Shown: positions 12,789 through 15,211 of the stretch, in pieces
Layout: every line of letters begins with the position of its first letter
Position numbering within the stretch: the stretch's first letter is position 1
IMG/VR virus record: IMGVR_UViG_3300028024_000181
Span: 1 to 50,700 of that record
From: a virus
Length of the DNA: 50,700 bases
Strand: one strand, 5' to 3'
Position numbers and translations under genes: made by a program
Notes under the pieces: generated by a model
Told to the model about the DNA's origin: nothing
The model's database searches: none
The model's input: the letters and a program-made list of their open reading frames with translations, nothing else

Positions 12789-12989
12789 TCACAGGCACCG
12801 GGTGAACGAGCACGACGAATCCCCAGCGGCCGCACGGTCCTGGTACTGCATATAGCCGAGCGTGAGCAGGTAGACGAACAGCACGCCGAGGATGGCGAGG
12901 ATGTTCCGGACGATCCGGAAAGCCGACTTCACAGCGCGAGCGCCGCGCCGGGTGTTGCCGGTGGGTGTTGCTGACTGTTGGTTGGCCAT
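12789..12989 (-). CDS. Small membrane protein, first gene of the leftward operon
   Basis: The 66-residue protein has a basic N-terminal tail (NTRRGARAVKSAFRIVRN), one transmembrane helix (about residues 30-48, NILAILGVLFVYLLTLGYM) and a short C-terminal tail with two cysteines. An N-in topology follows from the positive-inside rule. It is the first gene after the operator-controlled promoter at 13023-13052, so it should be made early. It is not recognised. Superinfection exclusion or envelope modification would be typical for such early membrane peptides, without direct evidence here. Confidence 0.65.
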   Translation of the reverse strand: MANQQSATPTGNTRRGARAVKSAFRIVRNILAILGVLFVYLLTLGYMQYQDRAAAGDSSCSFTRCL

Positions 12990-13022: not shown

Positions 13023-13067
13023 ATAATAGAACTATCGGTTACCTTCTGTAAAGTACCGAAAGTTACC
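13023..13067 (-). promoter_or_regulatory. Leftward early promoter (PL-like) with two 16-bp operators
   Basis: On the minus strand a -35 TTTACA (13052-13047) and a -10 TATTAT (13028-13023) are separated by 18 bp. Two related sites, GGTAACCGATAGTTCT (13043-13028) and GGTAACTTTCGGTACT (13067-13052), lie 24 bp apart. The first fills the spacer and touches the -10 box, and the second touches the -35 box. The same sites with the same geometry occur at 14063-14107. Repressor binding here would block the leftward operon. Confidence 0.8.
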
Positions 13068-13094
13068 TAATTTGTAACAGCAAGGACATCAGGC

Positions 13095-13120
13095 GAAAAA
13101 AAGCCCGCTAGAAGCGGGCT
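13095..13120 (-). terminator. Intrinsic terminator after the repressor operon
   Basis: On the minus strand an 8-bp perfect stem (AGCCCGCT/AGCGGGCT) with a 3-base loop is followed by seven T. It lies 20 bases after the gene at 13141 and before the leftward promoter, so it insulates the repressor transcript from the early operon. Confidence 0.88.
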
Positions 13121-13140
13121 GGCCTGCAAATTCCGAATGT

Positions 13141-13389
13141 TCAGTGGGCCGTGATGAGATAGGTATCCAGCATGTTCGACGACACATCCAGACACCACGC
13201 GAGGACGGCTAGGACGTGCAGATCGGCAACGCGAGTCCGGCTGGGCACGATGGTGCCACCGCGTGTCACCGAAAAATGCACATCGGTCACTATCTCCTGG
13301 TCATGCTTGCGTTTTTTGCTATTCCTCGCGGCCCGGTAGGCTGCGAAGTCGACGATCTCAGGTCCCGTTCTTTCCCGTGTCATGTTCAT
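13141..13389 (-). CDS. Hypothetical protein co-transcribed with the repressor
   Basis: The product is about 82 residues (MNMTRERTGPEIVDFAAYRAARN..., then LHVLAVLAWCLDVSSNML). It is not recognised. It starts about 31 nt inside the repressor gene in another frame and is followed by an intrinsic terminator. It is therefore the last gene of the lysogenic transcript and probably expressed in the prophage state. An accessory role in immunity would be typical of this position, but it is inference. Confidence 0.55.
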   Translation of the reverse strand: MNMTRERTGPEIVDFAAYRAARNSKKRKHDQEIVTDVHFSVTRGGTIVPSRTRVADLHVLAVLAWCLDVSSNMLDTYLITAH

Positions 13390-14038
13390 GGTCACTCTCA
13401 GGTTGCGCGGCCGATCGGGTGCCGGCTCTAGCGTGTCTGGCAAAGGTAGCCGGGCTTTCAGCAACCTTGTCAGAGGAGGAGTGTGCTTCTGTGGCGCGTG
13501 CTTTAAACGGCGGATTAGAGGTGTTTTTACCCTCTTCTCGAGAGTTTTGCGCGCCAAGCATTAATAGGATCGCCGCCCGAATTGTGGGCGACATGTCAGC
13601 TTGCACGGCATGCAATGCCGCACGCAATAAAGTTGCGTCATCGTCTGTAATTGCCATGAGACGGTGCTGCCCGTCTATTTCGTGCAGGATTTTGGCAAGG
13701 GCGCGTGTGAGCTGCGGTCCCGCCTGCGACGTTCCTCGGGCGGCGTCTTCCGCACGCAATGCTGTGTCTGGCACCGTGGGCACGCTAGCGCCCCGTTTCT
13801 CGCCGCGTTCCGTTGCGAGCCATTCGAAGTTGACGCCGAGCCAATGAGCAAGGTCCATCAGGCGCGACGTCTCCGGGATTGCTTCTCCCTCCAGCCACTT
13901 TCTGGCCCCTTTCTGCGAGACGCCCATCTTCTCGCCCAGCGCCCTTTGGCGGCCAGCGCCCTTCGCGGGGAAGCGGATATCGTCCAATGCCTCGTTCAGC
14001 CGGGCCGCGAAAGCGCGTTTTTGATCGTCAGTAACCAT
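13358..14038 (-). CDS. XRE-family phage repressor (CI-like)
   Basis: The 226-residue protein has an N-terminal helix-turn-helix of the XRE type (RQRALGEKMGVSQKGARKWLEGEAIPETSRLMDLAHWLGVNFEWLATERG split over residues about 29-79). The C-terminal part is not the usual LexA/S24 peptidase fold. It is Ala/Ser-rich and lacks a visible Ser-Lys catalytic pair, so induction by RecA-stimulated self-cleavage is uncertain. It is divergent from the small Cro-like gene across a 76-bp region with two operators, the typical switch position. The promoter for this gene would fire away from operator 14063-14078 with a start point near the ATG. Confidence 0.85.
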   Translation of the reverse strand: MVTDDQKRAFAARLNEALDDIRFPAKGAGRQRALGEKMGVSQKGARKWLEGEAIPETSRLMDLAHWLGVNFEWLATERGEKRGASVPTVPDTALRAEDAARGTSQAGPQLTRALAKILHEIDGQHRLMAITDDDATLLRAALHAVQADMSPTIRAAILLMLGAQNSREEGKNTSNPPFKARATEAHSSSDKVAESPATFARHARAGTRSAAQPESDHEHDTGKNGT

Positions 14039-14062
14039 GAGTTCTATTGTCCTCGCATCGCA

Positions 14063-14107
14063 AGGAACAATCAGTTCTTGCCGACTGGTAACTTACGGTT
14101 CTAGAAT
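14063..14107 (+). promoter_or_regulatory. Rightward early promoter (PR-like) with two 16-bp operators
   Basis: A -35 TTGCCG (14078-14083) and a -10 TAGAAT (14102-14107) are 18 bp apart. Site AGGAACAATCAGTTCT (14063-14078) touches the -35 box. Site GGTAACTTACGGTTCT (14087-14102) fills the spacer and touches the -10 box. The 24-bp site spacing and the promoter geometry copy those at 13023-13067. The predicted transcript starts at about 14114, essentially on the ATG of the first gene. Confidence 0.8.
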
Positions 14108-14114
14108 GCTGGCC

Positions 14115-14381
14115 ATGAACCTCATCGAACAAGCCATCAAGCACGCCGGCGGCGTCACTGCCTTCACGAAGGCTTTGAACGCGCTGATCGATCGCCCTGT
14201 GACCTATCAAGCCGTGAAAAAGTGGGCGGTGAAAGGCCGCTTGCCACGGACCGAATGGACCGGCGAGTCGAACTATGCTGCGGCGATCGAGCGTTTGACC
14301 GGTGGTCAAGTGCCGCGCGAGAAGCTTCTGCACACGCTGCCAGCATCGGCGACCGCGTCGCTTCAAGAGGAGGGCGTCTAA
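14115..14381 (+). CDS. Cro/YdaS-like small HTH regulator
   Basis: The 88-residue product (MNLIEQAIKHAGGVTAFTKA, VTYQAVKKWAVKGRLPRTEW) has the layout of Cro/YdaS-like helix-turn-helix proteins that oppose CI-type repressors. It is the first gene of the rightward operon. No ribosome-binding site precedes the ATG at 14115, and the -10 box ends 8 bases upstream, so the mRNA is probably leaderless. The last codons (SLQEEGV) coincide with the first copy of a 14-bp repeat. Its stop overlaps the end of the convergent gene 14378-14689. Confidence 0.78.
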   Translation: MNLIEQAIKHAGGVTAFTKALNALIDRPVTYQAVKKWAVKGRLPRTEWTGESNYAAAIERLTGGQVPREKLLHTLPASATASLQEEGV

Positions 14382-14736: not shown

Positions 14737-14863
14737 CGGCGAGCGAGCATCCCCACCTCTTTTCCGAATTGGCACAAGCCGCGCCGCTCCAAGAGGAGGG
14801 CGTATGACGCATCACACGTTAAGACTGACTGCGGATGCATCGGGCCTGGGAGCGTCGGTGCAG

Positions 14864-15154: not shown

Positions 15155-15211
15155 TTTCGTGATCGGCGGCGCGGGCAACGCGGTTGCGCAGCAAGAGGAG
15201 GGCGTCTGATG

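Follow-up and report, generated by a model that had tools for sequence, protein, structure and literature searches.

The region around the repressor gene of this virus appears to be an HK022-type lysis-lysogeny switch, in other words a temperate-phage immunity region with five predicted operators, a reading to which we give a probability of roughly 85% from features of the DNA. The window analyzed here is the whole 50,700-nt virus record IMGVR_UViG_3300028024_000181, and the phage is related to Burkholderiaceae prophages. These results would place a previously undescribed phage in the HK022 immunity class, and the control predicted for its repressor promoter differs from the textbook lambda case.

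A sequence-only reading of this DNA had described four related 16-bp sites in two pairs, and all four were present with the letters given. They comprise an OL1-like site (13043-13028, GGTAACCGATAGTTCT) and an OL2-like site (13067-13052, GGTAACTTTCGGTACT), both on the minus strand and read along pL, as well as an OR2-like site (14063-14078, AGGAACAATCAGTTCT) and an OR1-like site (14087-14102, GGTAACTTACGGTTCT) on the plus strand, both read along pR. The ends that these sites were said to share were borne out, with an informative core of 15 bp, GKAAC-N5-GTWCT, in each of them (OL1, 13028..13042, GTAACCGATAGTTCT; OL2, 13052..13066, GTAACTTTCGGTACT; OR2, 14064..14078, GGAACAATCAGTTCT; OR1, 14088..14102, GTAACTTACGGTTCT). 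The half-sites are asymmetric, and the proposed spacing was measured as 24 bp from centre to centre in both pairs. This pattern has five exact matches in 50.7 kb, all inside 1.1 kb around the repressor gene; 100 dinucleotide shuffles of the window gave a mean of 0.08 matches and a maximum of 1. A chance origin of the sites was ruled out by the shuffles and by the reversed-pattern control given below.

The fifth match (OR3-like, 14031..14045, plus strand, GTAACCATGAGTTCT) had been overlooked in that reading. This site, 33 bp away from OR2, has the A of the repressor start codon (14038) at its centre, and 10 further representative loci, HK022 among them, carry a site in the corresponding place. 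Owing to this match, the layout is one of three right and two left sites; measured upstream from the repressor ATG, OR3, OR2, and OR1 have their centres at 0, 33, and 57 bp. The earlier proposal of two sites per side thus held on the left, where two strong sites occur, and failed on the right, where there are three. An OL3 site was sought at the distance of HK022 OL3 and was not found.

The two promoters with 18-bp spacers that had been proposed were picked independently by a consensus promoter scan, namely pL (13023..13052, minus strand; TTTACA at 13052-13047 and TATTAT at 13028-13023) and pR (14078..14107, plus strand; TTGCCG at 14078-14083 and TAGAAT at 14102-14107). The geometry of sites and promoters also agreed with the claim. 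The last T of OL2 and of OR2, which abuts the pR -35, is the first T of the respective -35 element, and the -10 element begins with the last T of OL1 or OR1, respectively; because of these overlaps, the second site of each pair fills the spacer in pL and pR. An AT-rich stretch (TGTTACAAATTAG, 13067-13080) upstream of the left sites is a possible UP element, and the related prophage L007 has it unchanged.

The repressor gene (13358..14038, minus strand) encodes 226 aa with an HTH_3 domain, the only domain detected, and an S24 peptidase domain was not found in the window repressor. In lambda-type repressors, the S24 domain carries cooperativity and RecA-dependent cleavage. The cro-like gene (14115..14381, plus strand; 88 aa, YdaS/P22 Cro type) starts without a Shine-Dalgarno sequence and is predicted to be leaderless, since its start codon lies just 12 nt past OR1. 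An intrinsic terminator (13102..13120, minus strand) closes the repressor operon ahead of OL, and the first gene of the pL operon (12789..12989, minus strand; 66 aa) has an N-terminus that is conserved in L007. To the left of the region is a ParB-like gene; on its right are replication-type genes. Additionally, a minus-strand ORF (13141-13557) overlaps the repressor gene at its 3' end and occupies the position of lambda rex; it is conserved in L007, and Pfam and PHROG gave no match for it.

The immunity region of HK022 was reportedly treated by Carlson and Little in 1993, a study cited in PMC8053113. In the GenBank entry X16093 of HK022, five potential repressor sites are annotated, three of them oR and two oL; the oR sites are spaced by 24 and 33, the third one covering the cI ATG, and it is this agreement in sites and spacings that identifies the window as an HK022-type region. 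Both have 15-bp AC-N5-GT dyad operators. Counted from the repressor start, their three oR sites stand at 0/33/57, the third over the start codon, and their two oL sites, one within pL and one beside it, are separated by 24 bp and keep the same pL register. The window repressor shows 33.8% identity to CI over the HTH region, and the Cro proteins belong to the same family (30% identical). HK022 CI reportedly binds adjacent operators cooperatively and loops OL to OR (PMC8053113); by analogy, looping across the roughly 1 kb that separates these regions in the window is plausible.

The window nevertheless differs from HK022 in several respects. In HK022, OR2 lies in the pR spacer and OR1 downstream of the -10 element, whereas OR1 fills the spacer in the window, where pR is displaced downstream by one operator period (24 bp) with respect to the sites. 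This placement makes the geometry of pR and pL identical in the window, while the same fills-spacer geometry occurs in HK022 at pL only. HK022 also has half-sites of the type TGAAC/GTTCA, a cro gene with a Shine-Dalgarno sequence in contrast to the predicted leaderless cro of the window, and a CI with an S24-type C-terminal half. HK022 further possesses a weak OL3 at a distance of 53 bp and an additional operator close to pE, neither of which was found in the window. Because pR has moved by one site, we file the window as a variant and not as HK022 immunity itself.

A close relative is a prophage of Paraburkholderia sediminicola (L007), with a repressor and a Cro that are each 78% identical to those of the window. 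All five sites are present in it at unchanged spacing, and only OR2 departs from the pattern (first base G to A). Conservation of the sites in relatives had been suggested as a check; the array also recurs in further phages, and the alignment with L007 is by itself weak evidence because the two sequences are about 90% identical throughout. A Megablast comparison with named phages gave no match for the region, and a peptide-pattern scan of viral contigs for the repressor gave no relative.

The paired-site DNA pattern alone, with no protein, was scanned over viral contigs and returned 4, then 11 stretches. The repressor matched the family profile (scores 85-117) in 10 of the 10 stretches in which its region was covered, and the eleventh (L030, with a short flank) repeats the left pair of L024. 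Used as a control, the reversed pattern hit two contigs with a single distinct sequence, and no repressor of the family was present there. The same arrangement, whole or in large part, was identified in HK022, Pseudomonas U8, Aeromonas phiARM81mr, Acinetobacter MD-2021a, and Ab105-1phi, all with an operator slightly different from that of the window. The spacing of 0/33/57 (or 0/32/56 or 0/33/56) from the repressor ATG is shared by the window, L003, L004, L007, L033, HK022, U8, and MD-2021a, and it is kept, apart from decay of the OR2 left half, in L028, L032, and phiARM81mr. OR3 is shifted 8 bp upstream in L025, L026, and L027 (the start codon of L027 being uncertain), with OR2 and OR1 still at 33 and 57. 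The OL pair is 23-24 bp apart in the same pL register in 16 of 17 loci. The idea of an OL/OR-like switch around the repressor is thus well supported, as the array, its spacing, and its gene position recur with the same repressor family. The ruler of 0/33/57 bp offers a simple way to recognize and classify such switches when only sequence is available.

The array was absent beside more distant repressors, including those of the Casjensviridae loci L009, L010, L011, L015, and L021, of Bcep176 (L018) and YPCBV-1 (L019), and the Burkholderiaceae regulators L034-L060, indicating that it is not general to HTH_3 repressors. Within the family, the type of site follows the recognition helix, with QKGARKW-like helices beside GTAAC/GTTCT sites and PKAISKW-like helices beside TGAAC/GTTCA sites. 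An S24-type C-terminal half is present in L003, L026, and L028 (confirmed by profile in L003 only) and absent from the window, L004, and L005. This half appears exchangeable, since similar recognition helices and operators occur with or without it.

We predict the repressor promoter, PRM, at 14046..14074 on the minus strand (CTGATT at 14074-14069, a 17-bp spacer, and GACAAT at 14051-14046) from consensus and conservation, with a transcript start predicted at or beside the repressor ATG. Its -35 hexamer lies inside OR2 and its -10 hexamer directly adjoins OR3; both hexamers are weak, and the promoter scan of the window did not pick them. A conserved TGA, within CTGAT[TA], is found inside OR2, at a 17-bp spacing to a -10-like hexamer abutting OR3. 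Across the loci, TCA precedes GT in 14 of 16 OR2 cores versus 2 of 46 OR1 and OL cores, counts that come from a site list compiled by hand and from related loci, so that a p-value overstates their independence. This TCA core persists in loci that have lost the opposite half of OR2. These results suggest that OR2 and the PRM -35 element are one and the same DNA.

The region is similar to that of lambda in the divergent early promoters around the repressor gene and in adjacent sites 24 bp apart, and it differs in operator sequence. Lambda has three OL sites, an OR2 placed for PRM activation with its centre at about -42 of PRM, and an OR3 that is not over the start codon. A lambda-like switch would have the repressor activate PRM from OR2 by touching RNA polymerase, leaving OR3 as sole repressing site. 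Such a switch fits the 24-bp spacing of OR1 and OR2 and the gene order, both as in lambda. However, for a repressor mRNA that begins at the ATG or close to it, OR2 of the window would be centred at about -33 of PRM, hence over the -35 element, which its conserved core itself resembles, and we regard such activation as unlikely. 933W, a Shiga-toxin phage, has three OR sites. It resembles the window in combining these with the absence of OL3 and differs in its operator sequence and repressor; the lack of OL3 and a non-cooperative repressor have been reported for it (PMC3317979).

If only two sites per side were functional, the match at the start codon would be accidental; OR3 does stand 33 bp from OR2 and outside pR, but a site occurs at this position in 11 representative loci, including the window, and is annotated there in HK022, so that we consider an accident very unlikely. 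It is likewise very unlikely that the sites serve Cro or a host regulator instead of the repressor. Cro-like genes adjoin the sites in nearly every locus, yet the type of site tracks the repressor recognition helix, the HK022 sites are annotated as potential repressor sites, and HK022 CI binds OR and OL (PMC8053113).

In the HK022-type switch that we favor, repressor dimers would occupy the neighboring sites OR1 and OR2 as a pair, with the 24-bp spacing also seen in lambda, and would fill the OL pair likewise. The filled pairs would cover the spacers between -35 and -10 of pR and pL and block lytic transcription, which is a straightforward reading of paired sites that cover both promoters. As its level rises, the repressor would also shut off its own promoter, because the predicted -35 element lies within OR2 and the -10 element against OR3 with the start codon; such negative autoregulation, the opposite of lambda CI activation from OR2, has about an even chance of being correct. 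Cro presumably binds these same operators. More tentatively, and at somewhat less than even odds, the array may represent a widespread module in several proteobacterial genera, in which the OR2 core is the PRM -35 element, OR3 holds the start codon and thereby fixes the first repressor residues as MV or MVT, autoregulation is purely negative without lambda-style activation, and subtypes can differ in the place of pR by exactly one operator period.

In addition, a 25-nt direct repeat ending in AAGAGGAGGGCGT was observed to the right of cro at 14353-14377, 14779-14803, and 15181-15205, with a period of about 400 bp. The repeats are separated by minus-strand genes, one matching phrog_4753 and one zinc-ribbon-like, and these genes resemble inserted cassettes oriented against pR.
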